Source: a virus. From it: a stretch of DNA of 33,198 nt. The notes under the pieces were generated by a model. That model did not search any database. It was not told the origin of the DNA and was given only the letters and a program-made list of their open reading frames with translations. The position numbers were made by a program, and so were the translations under genes. Positions 2-27,651 of the stretch are shown piece after piece. Within the stretch, counting starts at the first letter, position 1, and every line of letters begins with the position of its first letter. Location of the stretch: IMG/VR virus record IMGVR_UViG_3300029448_000194, positions 1 to 33,198 of that record; one strand, given 5' to 3'.

Positions 2-70
2 GGTAATATATTTGAACCTAAAACATATGCAAGATTCGATGTACATGGTGGTTGGTTGTACAGAAGATGA
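2..70 (+). CDS. C-terminal end of an upstream gene (partial)
   Basis: An open frame enters from the left edge and ends at the TGA at 68-70. It gives 22 residues, including FEPKTYARFDVHGGWLYRR at the very C-terminus. The stop overlaps the next gene's ATG as ATGA (67-70), the usual signature of coupled phage genes, which supports it being real coding sequence. Too little is visible to name the protein. In T4 the portal and prohead protease genes lie upstream of the scaffold, but nothing here identifies either. Confidence 0.6.
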   Translation, partial: GNIFEPKTYARFDVHGGWLYRR

Positions 71-588
71 TTAAATTACAGAACTTAATTTTAGAAAAGA
101 AGTTAAGGGTTTTTGATTTTGATGATACATTAGTAAAGTCAAACTCAAAGATATATGTAACGAACAAAGGAAAGAAGAAAACATTATCAACTGGTGAATA
201 TGCAGTATATAAAAAGAAACCAGGTGATGAGCTTGATTTTTCTGACTTTAGTAAAATAATAGAACCTAAACAGATTAAAGCAATGTTTAGGGTTTTTAAG
301 AATATTTATAAAGCTTCTGGTAATAGAAGATTAACAATTTTAACAGCAAGAGGAGCATATAAACCAGTTCGTCAGTTTTTTAAAGATATTGGATATGATG
401 TTTATGTTGTTGCATTATCAAGTTCTAATCCAAAAGATAAATCAGATTGGATTGAAAAACAAATTAAAGACGGATATGATGATGTATTATTTTTTGATGA
501 TTCAAGAAAAAATATAGAAGCAGTAAAGAAATTAGAAAAGAAATATTCAGATATTAAAATGATTACGAGGTTAGTTAATTATGATTAA
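67..588 (+). CDS. HAD-superfamily phosphatase with capsid-targeting-like N-terminus
   Basis: The 173-residue protein has the four HAD landmarks: DFDDT (D17, D19, T21; the DxDxT nucleophile motif), the LTARG block (motif II), a lysine in the DKSDWIE stretch (motif III) and FFDDSRKN (motif IV). It is therefore expected to be a Mg-dependent phosphohydrolase; the substrate is unknown, and a nucleotidase or a polynucleotide 3'-phosphatase are both possible. I chose ATG 67 over the in-frame TTG at 52 because ATG 67 overlaps the upstream stop as ATGA. The first ten residues, MIKLQNLILE, precede the enzyme core directly and match the [I/L]-x-E prohead-protease site pattern of T4 capsid-targeting peptides. 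Packaging into the head is inference. It overlaps the next gene by 8 nt. Confidence 0.8.
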   Translation: MIKLQNLILEKKLRVFDFDDTLVKSNSKIYVTNKGKKKTLSTGEYAVYKKKPGDELDFSDFSKIIEPKQIKAMFRVFKNIYKASGNRRLTILTARGAYKPVRQFFKDIGYDVYVVALSSSNPKDKSDWIEKQIKDGYDDVLFFDDSRKNIEAVKKLEKKYSDIKMITRLVNYD

Positions 589-904
589 GTTAAAAGAATT
601 AATTAATGAAAGTTTATATAATGTATCTCAAGATATGAAAGATGGGAAGTTCGATGAGAAGAATCCACAAGTACTTATATCAGGATATGGTACAACAAAT
701 TTAAAGACATTACAAGATAGTTTATCACGAAAGTTTATGGACTTAGCTAAAAAAGCTAAAAAGGGTGATGTTGAAAATATTGAATACATATTGAAAAAAA
801 ATGGAGTTCTTATGGGATTTGTTGAAGCATTAGTTGATGCAAACAAAGAATTATCATCATCAAAGATGAAAAGAAAAATTACTATGTATAAGAGGAAACG
901 ATAA
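581..904 (+). CDS. Small basic protein, putative head-internal protein
   Basis: This 107-residue protein is not recognised. It starts MIKLKELINES, nearly the same leader as its upstream neighbour, with I-N-E at positions 8-10 as a possible prohead-protease cut. The remainder is helical and lysine-rich, and the C-terminus (SSSKMKRKITMYKRKR) is strongly basic, as in DNA-associated head-internal proteins. ATG 581 overlaps the HAD gene stop by 8 nt, and its TAA runs into the next ATG as TAATG (902-906), so translation is probably coupled. T4 internal proteins IPI-IPIII have the same architecture of a short targeting peptide plus a small basic body. The functional analogy is inference; no homology was tested. 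Confidence 0.65.
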   Translation: MIKLKELINESLYNVSQDMKDGKFDEKNPQVLISGYGTTNLKTLQDSLSRKFMDLAKKAKKGDVENIEYILKKNGVLMGFVEALVDANKELSSSKMKRKITMYKRKR

Positions 905-1338
905 TGAAACATAATACAATTCGTAATATAAATGCAAAATGGAAAGATTGGAGACTTGAAGAAGAAGATGTAGATACTTTTGATGAATTAGCAAAATTAT
1001 TATCAGAAGTTGGATATGTTCCAGGTTCAATCAAAACACCATCTTCATTTAATCCAGCAATGATGAAGTATTCTAATAAAGAAGCTAAAAGATTTGCAGA
1101 AGATGATGTAAAGAAAATGGGAAAAGAATTAAATAAAGCTTCACAACAATCAATCAAGATAATGTTAGGTAGTGTTAAAAATGGTAAGTATGATGCTATG
1201 GATATGATTCGTGCAATTAAATCAGGTGGTAGTAGAGCTGGTGATACAAGTGCAGGAGTTCCTGAGATGTTGAGTGTTTTGTGGAGTAAAGTAGAAAAAA
1301 GATTTCGTAAATATTTAGGTGGTAAAAAGCGAAGATAA
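904..1338 (+). CDS. Hypothetical protein
   Basis: A 144-residue protein of unrecognised family. It starts at the ATG in TAATG, overlapping the previous stop. Acidic (LEEEDVDTFDE, about residues 17-28) and basic stretches alternate, and the C-terminus is basic (KRFRKYLGGKKRR). No signal peptide or membrane segment is seen. Unlike its neighbours it does not begin with the MxKLKxL[I/L]xE-type leader. It is the last gene before a late-promoter-like element at 1340, so it closes the first coupled cluster. A virion-internal or DNA-binding role would fit the charge pattern but is a guess. Confidence 0.6.
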   Translation: MKHNTIRNINAKWKDWRLEEEDVDTFDELAKLLSEVGYVPGSIKTPSSFNPAMMKYSNKEAKRFAEDDVKKMGKELNKASQQSIKIMLGSVKNGKYDAMDMIRAIKSGGSRAGDTSAGVPEMLSVLWSKVEKRFRKYLGGKKRR

Positions 1339-1369: not shown

Positions 1370-2020
1370 ATGGCAAAATTAAAAGACTTATTAAAAGAAA
1401 ATTTTTCAATGGTTGGTGGAGTAGTTAGTACACCTGCAATTGGAAAAGGATATTCTTCATTAACACAGATAGTTGAAGATAACTATGGTGAAATTGATGA
1501 AGAAAGAGTTGATGCAAAGAAAGTAATTGAAGCACTATCTCAATATAACGAGATTGGTAAATCATTATATACACAAGATGATTTAAGAGAAACTGCCGAA
1601 AAACTTTCAAACATCGCAAAATTAACAAAAAATCACACATTAAGTGAGACAGAGGATTGGTTTGATAAAGTTAGTGTAAATCGTAATATGAAAGAACTAA
1701 CAAATTTCTCAACACAATTTGGTAAAATCTCTGGTGAAGCACAATCAATTCGTGAAAGATTGGCAACATTGTATGAAGATATGGGTAATATCTTAAATCG
1801 TTACTATGATATACCAGAAGTTAATGAAGTAAATGTAGATGAAAAAGATTCTAAGTTCAATGGAACCGTTTCTGAAGAAGATGGTGAATACCAAAAGTTC
1901 TTCCAATCTGCACTAAAGAAGTTTGGAGTATCATCTCCAGATGAATTAGATGATGAATCTAAGAAAAAACTTTTCAACTTTGTAGATAAAAATTGGAAAG
2001 CAAAAAAAGAAACTGATTAA
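1370..2020 (+). CDS. Putative capsid-targeted virion protein
   Basis: The 216-residue protein starts MAKLKDLLKENF, with L-K-E at positions 8-10, the third protein in this cluster with a capsid-targeting-like leader. The body is helical and acidic. The C-terminus (KKFGVSSPDELDDESKKKLFNFVDKNW, about residues 182-209) is a compact helix-turn-helix-like block; from memory, similar tails occur in structural proteins of T4-like marine phages. It has a good AGGAG ribosome binding site and its own late-promoter-like element. The neighbouring scaffold and capsid genes fit a head role. I do not recognise an enzyme. Cleavage after E10 is inferred from the motif only. Confidence 0.65.
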   Translation: MAKLKDLLKENFSMVGGVVSTPAIGKGYSSLTQIVEDNYGEIDEERVDAKKVIEALSQYNEIGKSLYTQDDLRETAEKLSNIAKLTKNHTLSETEDWFDKVSVNRNMKELTNFSTQFGKISGEAQSIRERLATLYEDMGNILNRYYDIPEVNEVNVDEKDSKFNGTVSEEDGEYQKFFQSALKKFGVSSPDELDDESKKKLFNFVDKNWKAKKETD

Positions 2021-2034
2021 AAGTAGAGGTTAAT

Positions 2035-2274
2035 TTGGTAAAAGTTACAATCCGTAAAGGACAAAGTGTAGATAAAGCACTTAAAATATTTAAAAGAAAA
2101 GTTAAAGATAGTGGTTTGATGTTGGAATTGAGAGAGCGTTCTTTCTATAGAAAACCATCAGATATTCTTCGAGAGAAAAAGAAGAAGGCCATTTTGAGAA
2201 ATCACTATAAGAAACTAAAAGATTTAGAACAAGAAAAAATACTAAATGGTAAGGGTGGACATAAGAAGAAATAA
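2035..2274 (+). CDS. rpsU: Phage-encoded small ribosomal subunit protein bS21
   Basis: The 79-residue protein reads as bS21 almost from end to end: VTIRKGQSVDKALKIFKRK, then SGLMLELRERSFYRKPSD, then a long basic helix (REKKKKAILRNHYKKLK). Its length and motif order match bacterial bS21 (about 55-75 aa). bS21 sits on the 30S platform near the anti-Shine-Dalgarno end of 16S rRNA and promotes initiation. The start is TTG 2035, with AGAGG five bases upstream; no ATG fits the conserved N-terminus. It follows the 216-residue head-type protein by 14 nt and precedes the scaffold operon, so it may be made late. Phage-borne bS21 is known from metagenomic and marine phages and probably competes with or replaces host bS21; the effect here is inference. 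Confidence 0.9.
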   Translation: MVKVTIRKGQSVDKALKIFKRKVKDSGLMLELRERSFYRKPSDILREKKKKAILRNHYKKLKDLEQEKILNGKGGHKKK

Positions 2275-2286
2275 AACTTCTTAGAA

Positions 2287-2311
2287 AAAATACACACTTT
2301 GTGTGATTTTA
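2287..2311 (+). terminator. Possible weak terminator after bS21 gene
   Basis: CACAC (2293-2297), TTT and GTGTG (2301-2305) form a short stem, flanked by A-rich sequence before and ATTTT after, so the stem can extend with one bulge. The stem is weak in GC and the T-run is short, so the call is tentative. Confidence 0.35.
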
Positions 2312-2323
2312 CTGCAGTAACCT

Positions 2324-2332: not shown

Positions 2333-2344
2333 ATTAAACTAAAT

Positions 2345-2415
2345 ACACTATGTACATTCGTACATCTTATAGTGTAAATCAAAAACAAACTATATTATAG
2401 TTCCGAATAACTATA
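2345..2415 (+). promoter_or_regulatory. Structured leader upstream of scaffold gene
   Basis: Two hairpins lie just before the scaffold ribosome binding site. The first has outer stem ACACTA/TAGTGT (2345-2350 and 2370-2375) around inner stem TGTAC-ATTC-GTACA (2351-2364). The second is a perfect 7-bp stem TATAGTT/AACTATA (2396-2402 and 2409-2415) with a 6-nt loop. No T-run follows, so a role in mRNA stability or translation is more likely than termination. A related TGTAC-N5-GTACA hairpin occurs at 16457-16471 before the gp26-like gene. Confidence 0.45.
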
Positions 2416-2435: not shown

Positions 2436-3566
2436 ATGGATGATTTATTAAAAGAAGCTATTGCTGACGCAAAAGCAGTTCGTGAAACTGCTCTTGAAAA
2501 TGCAAAGATAGCTCTTGAAGAAGCATTCACTCCCCGTTTGAAATCTATGTTGTCAAAGAAAATCGAAGCCGAAATGGCGGGTGATGAAATTGATGATGAA
2601 CCAGTAGATGATGAAACATACGAAGTAAATGACGAAGAAGATGATGCTCCTATCGAGGATGAACCAGTAGAAGATGAACCAGTAGCTGATGAACCAGTAG
2701 CTGATGAAGAAGATGCTGATGGTGAAGACGAGAAAGAAGTAGACGAATCTGATATCATTGAAATCGATGGTGTTAAATATGCACCAGTTGTTTCTGAAGA
2801 AGATCATGAAGACGCTGAAGAAGGCGAAGTGGATGAAGATTCACACGAAGAAGAAGATGAAGATGGAGTTGATGAATCAGATGAACTTGATTTAGAAGCT
2901 GTATTATCAGAATTGGAATCAGATCTTGAAGAAACTAAAGATGAAGAAGAGTCAAAAGATGATGTTGAAGAATCAACTGATAAAGTTGAAGAAACAAAAG
3001 ATGAAGATGACGATTCTAAAGTAGATGAAACTAAAGAAGAAGATAAAGAGTCTAAAGAAGAAGTTGCCGAGTCAACAGACGAAGTAACTGAAGAAGAAGA
3101 CAAAGATGATGAAGAAGTTGATGAAGACATCGACCTTGAAGAAGTCATTAAAGCTCTTTCTGAAGAAGAAGATACTGAAAAGTCAAACGAGGAAGTGTTA
3201 ACACTTCAAAGTGAATTAAAAGAACATCGCGAAGTAGTAACATACTTGCGTGAAAAACTAAATGAAGTTAATTTATTAAACGCAAAACTATTGTTTTCTA
3301 ACAAATTGTTTAGAGCGTTTGGTTTAAGTAACGAACAGAAATTGAAAGTTGTTGAAACATTTGATAGAACTAAGAATCTTAGAGAAATCAAACTTGTTTA
3401 CTCAACACTTGCAGAATCTTTTAAGGGTGGAAAAATCCAACCTACTAAAGAGGCTAAAGGTTCAAGTTCTAAAGCAGTTGCTTCAACTAAACCTAAAAAC
3501 GATGAAGTATTGTCAGAAGGCACAGATATAAAAAATCGTTTTAAGAAATTAGCTAACATAATATAA
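2436..3566 (+). CDS. 22: Prohead core scaffolding protein (gp22-like)
   Basis: The 376-residue protein has the usual gp22 organisation. The N-terminus is helical (MDDLLKEAIADAKAVRETAL, then EEAFTPRLKSMLSKKIEAEM). A very long Asp/Glu-rich middle spans about residues 48-250. The C-terminal helix block (LLNAKLLFSNKLFRAFGLS, then a VYSTLAESFK stretch) resembles gp22 of T4-like phages. It would fill the prohead and be degraded by the prohead protease. At 376 residues it is longer than T4 gp22 (about 269) because of the expanded acidic region, which contains DNA repeats at 2658-2702. Its position directly upstream of gp23 is conserved in T4-like genomes. No prohead protease gene is visible in the window, so it must lie elsewhere. 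Confidence 0.85.
   Translation: MDDLLKEAIADAKAVRETALENAKIALEEAFTPRLKSMLSKKIEAEMAGDEIDDEPVDDETYEVNDEEDDAPIEDEPVEDEPVADEPVADEEDADGEDEKEVDESDIIEIDGVKYAPVVSEEDHEDAEEGEVDEDSHEEEDEDGVDESDELDLEAVLSELESDLEETKDEEESKDDVEESTDKVEETKDEDDDSKVDETKEEDKESKEEVAESTDEVTEEEDKDDEEVDEDIDLEEVIKALSEEEDTEKSNEEVLTLQSELKEHREVVTYLREKLNEVNLLNAKLLFSNKLFRAFGLSNEQKLKVVETFDRTKNLREIKLVYSTLAESFKGGKIQPTKEAKGSSSKAVASTKPKNDEVLSEGTDIKNRFKKLANII
2658..2702 (+). repeat. Three 15-bp tandem repeats in scaffold gene
   Basis: GATGAACCAGTAG plus a variable last codon pair repeats three times in frame, encoding DEPVE, DEPVA and DEPVA. A related copy lies upstream near 2592. Such repeats can expand or contract and may explain the length of the acidic linker. 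Confidence 0.8.
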
Positions 3567-3583: not shown

Positions 3584-5239
3584 ATGAGTAAATCAATAAA
3601 CTCAATAGAGAGCTTGATGGAGGGATATAATCCTCAGCGTCAACTTCTCGAACAAACCCGTAAATTAGTCAAGAAATGGGAACCAACAGGACTTTTAGAA
3701 GGTCTTGATGCGGAACATGAAGTAAACGGAATGGCAGTACTACTTGAGAATCAAGCCCGTCAATTAATTGACGAAGCTTCAAGAACAGGTGGACAAAATT
3801 CTGAAGAATGGTCAGGTGTTGCCTTACCATTAGTCCGTAGAATCTTTGGTGAACTAGCAGCACAAGAATTTGTGTCAGTTCAACCAATGAATCTTCCAAG
3901 TGGACTTATCTTCTACCTTGACTTCAAATACGGTACAGCCCAAACAGACGCCCACACTCAACATAGTGATGTATATGGTAACACATCTGCATCTAATGCT
4001 GACGCTGCTGGTGGTTTATATGGTGCTGGAAAATTCGGATATTCGGTGAACGATTCTGATACGGTATCATTAGCTGGTCATGTAAGTACTGCTAACGCAA
4101 CTCAATTCATTAGTTCATCAGTATCTTGGTCAGATGTAGATTTTGAACCAGACCTATCAGCATCAGTATCAACAGGTGTTGCTGCAGATGATGGTTTAGT
4201 TAAAATTACAACTGCCGTAGCTTCATATTCTACACCAGATTATGATGGCGTTCGTGCATTTACAATTAGTGGTTCAGGATACGATCAATTCTTTCCTGCA
4301 TACACTTCATACGATGCAACGAATTCTCAAATTTCTTTCATAGCTAAAAAGTCAATAGCAGGTGCTCCGACAACTGCAGTTGTTTCTTATCATAAACAAC
4401 CGACTACTAACTATTCAAGAACTGATTTTGAGGCAACTAAAGCTGAAATCGCATTAAACCCAGAAACAGATATCGATATTCCTGAATTAGATATTGCGTT
4501 AAAGAGTATTCCGATAATCGCGAAAACTCGTAAGTTAAAAGCAGTCTGGACTCCAGAACTTGCTCAAGACTTAAATGCATATCATTCAGTCGATGCTGAA
4601 GCTGAGTTAACAGCTCTATTAAGTGAGTATATCTCAATGGAAATCGATTTAGAAATCCTTGATATGTTGCATAATAATGCTTCTGCGAAAACAGAAAGAT
4701 GGTCTGCAAGACCAGGCTATGAGTACGATGCTGCAACTTCATTGTTCGCAGAATCATCAGCAAACGCATCTGCATACACTAAAGGAACATGGTTCCAAAC
4801 TCTTGGTAACAAGATACAAAGTGTAAGTAATGCAATTCATCAGAAGACTCTAAGAGGAGGAGCAAATTTCATCGTGGTATCACCTGAAACTGCTACTATC
4901 ATCGAGAGTATTCCTGGATACGCTGCTGATACAAATGGTGACGCAACCAATGGTAAATTTGCTATGGGTGTTCAAAAAGTAGGTGCTCTTAATAATAGAT
5001 ACACCGTCTATAAGAACCCATATATGTTAGAAAACACAATTCTTTGTGGTTTCAGAGGAAGTAATTTCTTAGAAACTGGAGCTGTGTATTCACCATATGT
5101 ACCATTAATCATGACACCACTTGTGTATGATCCTAAGAACTTTACACCAAGAAAAGGTGTAATGACCAGATACGCTAAGAAGATGGTTAGACCTGAGTTC
5201 TATGGTAAAGTCGTAGTTGCTGATGTAAACTATGTATAA
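3584..5239 (+). CDS. 23: Major capsid protein (gp23-like)
   Basis: The 551-residue protein aligns by eye with T4 gp23: the FVSVQPMNLPSGLIFYLDFKYG block (about residues 95-117) corresponds to the gp23 segment around GVQPMNSPTG. The length is close to T4 (521). A maturation site is visible: LIDE at 61-64 followed by ASRTGG, matching the [I/L]-x-E prohead-protease rule and very close to the T4 cleavage after residue 65. It forms the hexameric shell of the head. The ribosome binding site GGGAG precedes ATG 3584, 17 nt after the scaffold stop, so the two are probably cotranscribed. A palindrome and a strong terminator follow directly. Confidence 0.95.
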   Translation: MSKSINSIESLMEGYNPQRQLLEQTRKLVKKWEPTGLLEGLDAEHEVNGMAVLLENQARQLIDEASRTGGQNSEEWSGVALPLVRRIFGELAAQEFVSVQPMNLPSGLIFYLDFKYGTAQTDAHTQHSDVYGNTSASNADAAGGLYGAGKFGYSVNDSDTVSLAGHVSTANATQFISSSVSWSDVDFEPDLSASVSTGVAADDGLVKITTAVASYSTPDYDGVRAFTISGSGYDQFFPAYTSYDATNSQISFIAKKSIAGAPTTAVVSYHKQPTTNYSRTDFEATKAEIALNPETDIDIPELDIALKSIPIIAKTRKLKAVWTPELAQDLNAYHSVDAEAELTALLSEYISMEIDLEILDMLHNNASAKTERWSARPGYEYDAATSLFAESSANASAYTKGTWFQTLGNKIQSVSNAIHQKTLRGGANFIVVSPETATIIESIPGYAADTNGDATNGKFAMGVQKVGALNNRYTVYKNPYMLENTILCGFRGSNFLETGAVYSPYVPLIMTPLVYDPKNFTPRKGVMTRYAKKMVRPEFYGKVVVADVNYV

Positions 5240-26074: not shown

Positions 26075-26767
26075 ATGAAAATAGATGTATTAGATAAGGG
26101 TTATATCGAGTTAGTAGATACACTCGGTGACGACTTAACACCAGTAAATGCCGCACGAGTTTCTTTTGGTGGTAGAAGTAAAGACTTCACAGATAAAGAT
26201 AGAAAGTTGTCCAAATTCCTAATAAAACACAAACACTTCAGTCCTTTCAGACACCAACACATTCAAGTAATTATTAAAGCACCCGAATTCGTGATGCGAC
26301 AATGGTATAAGCATGTTGTGGGTATTGAAACAACTTCAAACCATCCAACAAAAGACCATGCATGGAATGAGATTAGTGGTAGGTATGTTCCTTATGATGA
26401 ATTTTATGAACCAACAGAGTTCAGAAAACAATCAGATGATAACAAACAGGCAAGTGATGGGTTAGTTGATAATCAAAAAGAGATGAAACAATTGTGGACT
26501 ATCTCTCAACAAAATTCTATCTCTGCATATAAAGAGATGTTAAAAAATGGAATGGCAAAAGAACAAGCAAGAAGTATATTACCACTTACGGTTTATACAA
26601 AAGTTTGGTGGACTGCATCATTTCAATCAGTAATGAATTTCATTGAATTAAGAGATGAACCAACATCACAAATAGAGATACAAGATTATGCTAAAGTATT
26701 GAAAGAAATTATGTTGGAATCTTTCCCAGAAACTACTAAATTATGGAGTGAGATTTACTTAGACTAA
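26075..26767 (+). CDS. thyX: Flavin-dependent thymidylate synthase ThyX
   Basis: The 230-residue protein makes dTMP from dUMP using FAD, NADPH and methylenetetrahydrofolate. The fold landmarks are visible: FSPFRHQHIQVIIKAPEFVM (about 56-75), RQWYKH (75-80) and AWNEISGRY (96-104), then a QQNSISAYKEMLKNGMAKEQ helix with ARSILPL. In canonical ThyX the signature is RHRxxSxNExSxRY. Here the first part is K79-H80-V81 and about 12 residues (IETTSNHPTKDH) are inserted before NEISGRY. From memory some phage ThyX share this variant. AAAGG precedes ATG 26075. Its stop overlaps rimK as TAATG. Confidence 0.92.
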   Translation: MKIDVLDKGYIELVDTLGDDLTPVNAARVSFGGRSKDFTDKDRKLSKFLIKHKHFSPFRHQHIQVIIKAPEFVMRQWYKHVVGIETTSNHPTKDHAWNEISGRYVPYDEFYEPTEFRKQSDDNKQASDGLVDNQKEMKQLWTISQQNSISAYKEMLKNGMAKEQARSILPLTVYTKVWWTASFQSVMNFIELRDEPTSQIEIQDYAKVLKEIMLESFPETTKLWSEIYLD

Positions 26768-27651
26768 TGAAAGGTTGGATATTTACAACACAAAGTTCAC
26801 CATCTTACGAAACAAAAAGATTAGTTGAATGTTTTGATAAAGAGGGTATAGAATGTTTTTATGTACATCCTAATAATGTAGATATTTTTATTGACAAGGA
26901 TGATAGAAAATCAGTATTGGTTGAGAATGAATATACATCCATACCTGATTTTGTAATACCACGAGTTGGAAGTGCAACCACATACTATCAGAAGGCAGTA
27001 TTCAGACATTTAGAAAGAATGGGAGTATTGTTTATCAATGGTAGTGATGCAATTGACAATGTAAAAGATAAACTATATACAATGCAAATACTATCACAGA
27101 ATAATATTCCACATCCAAAAACTATGTTGGTTAAGAGTCCAGTTGATTCTGATTATGTACAAAAGAATATTGGGTTTCCTATTGTGGTTAAATCATTAAG
27201 TGGTACACATGGTAAAGGTGTTTATCTTGCAGAGAACAAACGAAACTTTCAACAATTAGTAGAGATGATGGAACAATTCAATGATAGGTTTAATATCATA
27301 TTACAAGAATTCGTAAAAGACTCACATGGAAAAGATTTAAGAATTATCGTAGTAGGTGGTAAAGTTATTGGAGCAATGAAAAGAGAATCAAACGATGGTG
27401 ATTTCAGAGCTAATGTTACACGAGGTGGTGGAGCAAAACCAGTAGAACTCGATGAACAAATGGAATATCTTGCATTAGAATCTACAAAACTATTAGGATT
27501 AGATATAGGTGGTGTAGATTTATTGTATGATAATGATGGATACAAAATATGTGAGGTTAACTCTTCACCTGGTTTTAGGGGAATGGAAGAATATACTGAA
27601 ATAAGAGTTGCCGAACAGATAGTTACTTATGTAAAGAATAAATTAAATTAA
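26767..27651 (+). CDS. rimK: RimK-type ATP-grasp ligase
   Basis: The 294-residue protein is close in length and layout to E. coli RimK (300), which adds glutamates to the C-terminus of ribosomal protein bS6. The pre-ATP-grasp domain has PDFVIPRVGSATTYYQKAVF and MGVLFINGSDAI. The ATP-grasp part has PIVVKSLSGTHGKGVYL (K142, glycine loop 146-151), LQEFVKDSHGKDLRIIVVGG, NDGDFRANVTRGG and the metal-binding CEVNSSPGF (E263, N265). All the expected nucleotide and Mg ligands are present, so it should be active. The substrate could be bS6, another protein or a small peptide. It is coupled to thyX and to the polymerase gene by TAATG overlaps. Confidence 0.88.
   Translation: MKGWIFTTQSSPSYETKRLVECFDKEGIECFYVHPNNVDIFIDKDDRKSVLVENEYTSIPDFVIPRVGSATTYYQKAVFRHLERMGVLFINGSDAIDNVKDKLYTMQILSQNNIPHPKTMLVKSPVDSDYVQKNIGFPIVVKSLSGTHGKGVYLAENKRNFQQLVEMMEQFNDRFNIILQEFVKDSHGKDLRIIVVGGKVIGAMKRESNDGDFRANVTRGGGAKPVELDEQMEYLALESTKLLGLDIGGVDLLYDNDGYKICEVNSSPGFRGMEEYTEIRVAEQIVTYVKNKLN

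Follow-up and report, generated by a model that had tools for sequence, protein, structure and literature searches.

A phage bS21 gene in a T4-like head gene cluster and its relation to the Shine-Dalgarno usage of the phage

The bS21 gene and its place in the head gene cluster

The window is the whole stretch of DNA that we analyzed, a 33-kb linear virus fragment (33,198 nucleotides; IMG/VR record IMGVR_UViG_3300029448_000194). Close to its left end lies an open reading frame that an earlier note, made from the sequence alone, had described as encoding a 79-residue product with the full bS21 signature and a TTG start (Table 1). The open reading frame is as described, and all searches agreed on its identity. 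The product matches PF01165 (E-value 1.4e-13; 50.8 bits against a cut-off of 27) and TIGR00030 (51.8 bits against a curated cut-off of 28.95), and is assigned to PHROG 21469, 'ribosomal protein S21'. When used as a phmmer query, it returned significant E-values for bS21 chains only. Its AlphaFold2 model (pLDDT 83) contains the three bS21 helices (residues 12-26, 28-36 and 41-72), and the top nine PDB matches of this model in Foldseek are all bS21 chains. Profile, PHROG and fold thus confirm the gene as a genuine bS21. A start at any in-frame ATG instead of the TTG would remove the conserved N-terminus, and the TTG start probably limits the rate at which bS21 is translated.

Table 1. Features of the window discussed in the text
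Feature	Position	Strand	Evidence or remarks
HAD/polynucleotide-kinase-phosphatase-like (PNKP-like) protein	67..588	+	Pfam, PHROG; ORF 52-588, ATG at 67 gives the tag MIKLQNLILE
107-aa protein, probable internal head protein	581..904	+	N-terminal tag MIKLKELINE
144-aa protein, same operon as bS21	904..1338	+	N-terminus without tag
216-aa protein, probable internal head (cargo) protein	1370..2020	+	N-terminal tag MAKLKDLLKE; 14-nt gap to bS21
Shine-Dalgarno sequence of the bS21 gene, AGAGG	2025..2029	+	Five bases ahead of the TTG
Phage bS21 (rpsU-like), 79 aa, TTG start	2035..2274	+	Profiles, PHROG, AlphaFold2 model, Foldseek
Terminator-like hairpin with T-run	2293..2312	+	Directly 3' of bS21; kept in relatives
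Conserved hairpin TACACTAT...ATAGTGTA, 5' leader of the scaffold-MCP unit	2344..2376	+	Compensatory changes at one pair
Second conserved hairpin TATAGTT...AACTATA	2396..2415	+	Compensatory changes at one pair
gp22-like prohead scaffold, acidic, N-terminus MDDLLKEAIADAKAVRETA	2436..3566	+	Assigned by position and composition
gp23-like major capsid protein (MCP)	3584..5239	+	Pfam, PHROG, sequence matches
RimK-family alpha-L-glutamate ligase, possible second ribosome-directed gene	26767..27651	+	TIGR00768, 257 bits

The surrounding genes form a T4-like head cluster, in which a head-tail adaptor was also matched (PHROG) and bS21 lies two genes before the MCP; the scaffold-like product has no Pfam or PHROG match. 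This arrangement is a constant feature. In all 63 loci that hold both genes, bS21 is on the same strand as the gp23-like MCP, which lies 1.27-2.66 kb downstream, and in relatives such as contig L087 the prohead protease is found a few genes upstream of bS21. The location of bS21 within the head genes, as claimed in the earlier note, is supported, and the placement is that of the phages described by Chen et al. 2022 (PMC9723584), where only a few genes part bS21 from the MCP and the prohead protease.

The intergenic stretch that separates bS21 from the scaffold gene (2275-2435) is also conserved, with a length of 155-164 nt in the relatives that were compared, and in the window it folds better than shuffled sequences (z -2.24). 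Since the terminator-like hairpin and the two conserved hairpins part bS21 from scaffold and MCP, bS21 appears to close the upstream operon, while scaffold and MCP would form a unit of their own. We infer that bS21 is transcribed late. Adjoining the first conserved hairpin, AAATACACTAT resembles a T4 late promoter.

Three of the genes upstream of bS21 (67-588, 581-904 and 1370-2020) share the N-terminal tag M(I/A)KLKxLIxE, and between five and seven tagged genes precede bS21 in each of four longer relatives (G003, G013, G018 and G021). When the 1,944 internal methionines of the window and the four longer contigs were compared with this pattern, none matched, and its single match in the head and tail region of T4 is gp24 (MAKINELLRE). 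Internal proteins of T4 are diverse but share a capsid-targeting sequence that is conserved (PMC3012670), and cleavage by the prohead protease of T4 takes place after L/I-X-E (PMC9026906). Because the tag resembles both the targeting sequence and the protease site, the tagged genes probably encode cargo that is packaged and ejected. They constitute a variable bank, which includes the HAD/PNKP-like phosphatase.

Conservation of the protein, its start and its tail

We scanned IMG/VR for relatives of the window bS21, confirmed 122 stretches encoding one and kept 80 loci. The median dN/dS of bS21 is 0.10 (63 codons, 120 usable pairs), so the gene is under purifying selection. All 25 closest loci (L002-L026) keep the TTG start together with a GAGG or AGAG-type Shine-Dalgarno (SD) sequence. 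The same combination occurs in L087, which belongs to a metagenome-assembled genome (MAG), and in L032, L033 and L037, while five other relatives (L027-L031) start with ATG. The bS21 of the pelagiphage Mosig begins with TTG too, after the strong SD AAAGGAGGT, and TTG or GTG starts 20 of the 26 bS21 genes from Bacteroidota genomes in which Tyr54 is absent. A weak start on rpsU is therefore not peculiar to phages.

The C-terminal extension LNGKGGHKKK, for which a phage-specific contact had been suggested, is found only in the window protein and in its near-identical relative L002. In the remainder of the close clade, the proteins are 69-81% identical to that of the window and stop at 65-70 residues, and residues 75-79 of the window protein are predicted to be disordered in the AlphaFold2 model. 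As the tail is not conserved, a dedicated contact is unsupported. A tree of bS21 (66 columns) recovered no host lineage, and the phage proteins formed a weakly supported set of their own.

Residue 54 and Shine-Dalgarno usage

In Flavobacterium johnsoniae, Tyr54 of bS21 stacks on the 3' tail of the 16S rRNA, and translation of strong-SD mRNAs increases when Tyr54 or the C-terminal region is missing (Y54A and bS21-deltaC; PMC9976891). The window protein aligns without gaps to F. johnsoniae bS21 up to residue 54, where it carries Leu instead of Tyr. Leu54 is followed by His57 and Tyr58, and the latter is conserved in the close clade. Being one helical turn further on, Tyr58 could act as a shifted stand-in for the Tyr54 contact.

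To measure SD usage, we counted GGAG, GAGG or AGGA cores located 5-20 nt upstream of the first ATG in open reading frames of at least 100 codons; positions still further upstream served as background, and genes were called mechanically from their first ATG. The 'strong AGGAG sites' previously noticed on the phage mRNAs are borne out, with a core in 0.62 of the called genes in the window compared to 0.02 of the background positions, similar to T4 (0.57 and 0.06, respectively). In phages of Bacteroidia we detected no SD enrichment (immuto, 0.02-0.03; phi14:2, 0.04; crAss001, 0.26 against a background of 0.21).

A second scan gathered phages with an aromatic residue 54 in bS21, which led to a comparison of 25 phage lineages that are not fully independent of each other. 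The eight lineages with aromatic residue 54 use SDs at about background (0-0.11), whereas 14 of the 17 lineages with a non-aromatic residue, including the window clade, range from 0.33 to 0.73 (P-value = 1.4e-4, one-sided Mann-Whitney test, uncorrected for shared ancestry). The three exceptions, with few SDs (0.11-0.17), are LR756508, L171/172 and L187. Cellular genomes follow the same division, with SD usage of 0.00 in Bacteroidota with Tyr54 and 0.14-0.67 in those that lack it (samples up to 20 kb). The bS21 type of a phage thus tracks the initiation mode of the phage itself, although the match is not strict. In the plainest reading, the host of the window phage uses SDs and its bS21 is exchanged for a phage copy of the same type.

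We considered whether SDs are confined to late genes and rejected this possibility. In relatives of 65-76 kb, SDs occur on both structural and non-structural genes, with replication genes poorly sampled, which is what a host that already uses SDs would lead one to expect. This disfavors a late switch towards SD-led initiation, while the tracking of initiation mode by bS21 type argues for like-for-like replacement rather than any such switch. The earlier proposal that phage bS21 biases initiation toward SD-bearing mRNAs is in part disfavored by these two results, and only if the host were SD-blind would such a bias stand out.

Phage bS21 genes beside capsid genes are already established (PMC6375957, PMC9723584), and the window clade differs from the published cases in several respects. 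The huge myophages of freshwater Bacteroidetes (Chen et al. 2022, PMC9723584) likewise have bS21 a few genes from MCP, protease and portal, with T4-like or myovirus head genes, a conserved context and a proposed late takeover of ribosomes. Their bS21, however, has retained an aromatic residue at position 54 and is encoded on the strand opposite to the structural genes, whereas the window gene is co-directional, encodes Leu54 and belongs to an SD-using phage. The pelagiphages HTVC008M and Mosig EXVC030M (Mizuno et al. 2019, PMC6375957) are also T4-like marine phages with bS21. Mosig shares with the window the non-aromatic residue 54, SD-using genes (0.56) and the TTG after a strong SD, but its bS21 lies among replication genes, is 39% identical to the window protein and falls in a separate lineage of the tree.

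The closest parallel in gene order is the Microcystis phage Mel-JY01 (PP395634), of which we found no published description in the literature. Its RpsU gene occupies the same position as in the window (protease, small gene, bS21, scaffold, gp23), its MCP is 57% identical to that of the window, and it too uses SDs. Unlike the window, it has no bank of tagged genes upstream, and its bS21 is 48% identical over the core, bears an N-terminal extension and starts with ATG. The cellular bS21 of Bacteroidia (F. johnsoniae, PDB 7JIL) shares family, fold and place beside the anti-SD with the window protein, but has Tyr54 and serves genes without SDs. In a limited literature search, we saw no earlier mention of a rule that connects the bS21 type with SD usage. 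In the jumbo phages SCTP-2 and PA5oct, the bS21 gene follows a clpX-like gene.

The division between anti-SD-hiding bS21 in phages without SDs and SD-permissive bS21 in phages with strong SDs bears on why phages so often have a bS21 gene. It yields the testable rule that the type of a bS21 copy fits the way in which phage and host initiate translation, and turns mismatches such as LR756508 into candidates for true reprogramming. LR756508 (L125/L188), a huge phage with a related MCP, a non-aromatic residue 54 and no SD use, is the best mismatch case for reprogramming of the ribosome.

Proposed role of the phage bS21

bS21 is an exchangeable ribosomal protein. We lean towards a working bS21 that is the last product of a late operon for internal head proteins and is swapped like for like into the host 30S subunit, aiding late SD-led mRNAs. 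Once made, it would replace host bS21 beside the 3' tail of the 16S rRNA, where it would keep or tune initiation on the abundant SD-led late mRNAs of the phage. An SD-permissive protein, with no aromatic residue 54, would suit these mRNAs and a host that presumably uses SDs as well. The phage may in this way keep ribosomes replete with bS21 while capsid proteins are made in a burst, leaving the initiation code unchanged. In related systems, phage bS21 transcripts are late, alongside those of the capsid, and preferential translation of phage mRNAs has been proposed (PMC9723584). Pelagiphage bS21 enters E. coli 70S ribosomes, but these are only about 5% active in vitro (PMC6375957), which counts against a working replacement.

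This low activity, measured on a GFP template, would instead fit a role in host shut-off, in which phage bS21 displaces that of the host and leaves ribosomes poor at initiating on host (or all) mRNAs, so that competition is lowered. The heterologous host may account for the 5% figure, the strongly conserved core suits a working bS21, and the gene lies among late head genes, at a stage when phage translation must run high. Shut-off is therefore improbable, if the least so of the alternatives.

Next in order, and unlikely, is a switch in an SD-blind Bacteroidia host, where a phage bS21 devoid of Tyr54 would free the anti-SD and make ribosomes prefer SD-rich phage mRNAs to host mRNAs, which lack SDs. 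The Leu at position 54 and the behavior of the bS21-deltaC and Y54A ribosomes of F. johnsoniae are in line with it, as are the presence of Flavobacterium phage immuto (53%) among the MCP relatives and the Flavobacteriales label of the best genome-bin match. Against it, neither immuto, phi14:2 and crAss001 nor the phages with Bacteroidia-type bS21 are enriched in SDs, non-late genes of the relatives carry SDs too, the conserved Tyr58 could assume the role of Tyr54, and the matching bin is one phage-rich MAG among the 395 genomes searched. We give still less credence to the idea that the virus alters the initiation code itself, in that its bS21 would unmask the anti-SD of a Bacteroidia host and make the ribosomes SD-dependent, so that they select late phage mRNAs.

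Equally hard to credit is an RNA-binding function outside the ribosome, for example in autoregulation or on a phage RNA such as the hairpin leader. bS21 is described as able to act outside ribosomes, in the OLE RNP (PMC12054373), and conserved hairpins do lie directly downstream of the gene. The core residues and the fold are nonetheless those of an ordinary bS21, and the hairpin leader probably belongs to a separate transcript and may simply stabilize or regulate the scaffold-MCP mRNA. Finally, it is very unlikely that virions carry bS21 together with the internal proteins and inject it for action as soon as infection begins, as suggested for other phages (PMC9723584): it does end an operon whose other genes bear capsid-targeting-like tags, but a tag ending in L/I-X-E, as T4 internal proteins have (PMC3012670), is absent from the bS21 of the window and of every close relative, which disfavors packaging by this route.

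We sought the host of the window phage among Bacteroidota. Only one genome bin matched, a Flavobacteriales MAG (NAT55) in which several distinct gp23 contigs occur, with none in 394 other Bacteroidota genomes. This MAG (L087-L092; NZWA01000064 and its assembly, G041) contains at least three gp23 phage contigs whose MCPs are 55-88% identical to that of the window, plus weaker ones, and reflects either contamination or an infected host. Assignment of the host from this one phage-rich bin was treated as weak, and assignment from RimK was rejected, as the best Bacteroidota match is only 41% identical. No tRNA genes were found.

The substrate of RimK in E. coli is bS6, a neighbor of bS21 on the ribosomal platform. 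A joint ribosome-modification module of RimK and bS21 was rejected, because RimK was found in the window only and in none of 40 related (fragmentary) records. Cellulophaga phage phi14:2 has a RimK within an amidoligase cluster, and the substrate of the window RimK therefore need not be bS6.
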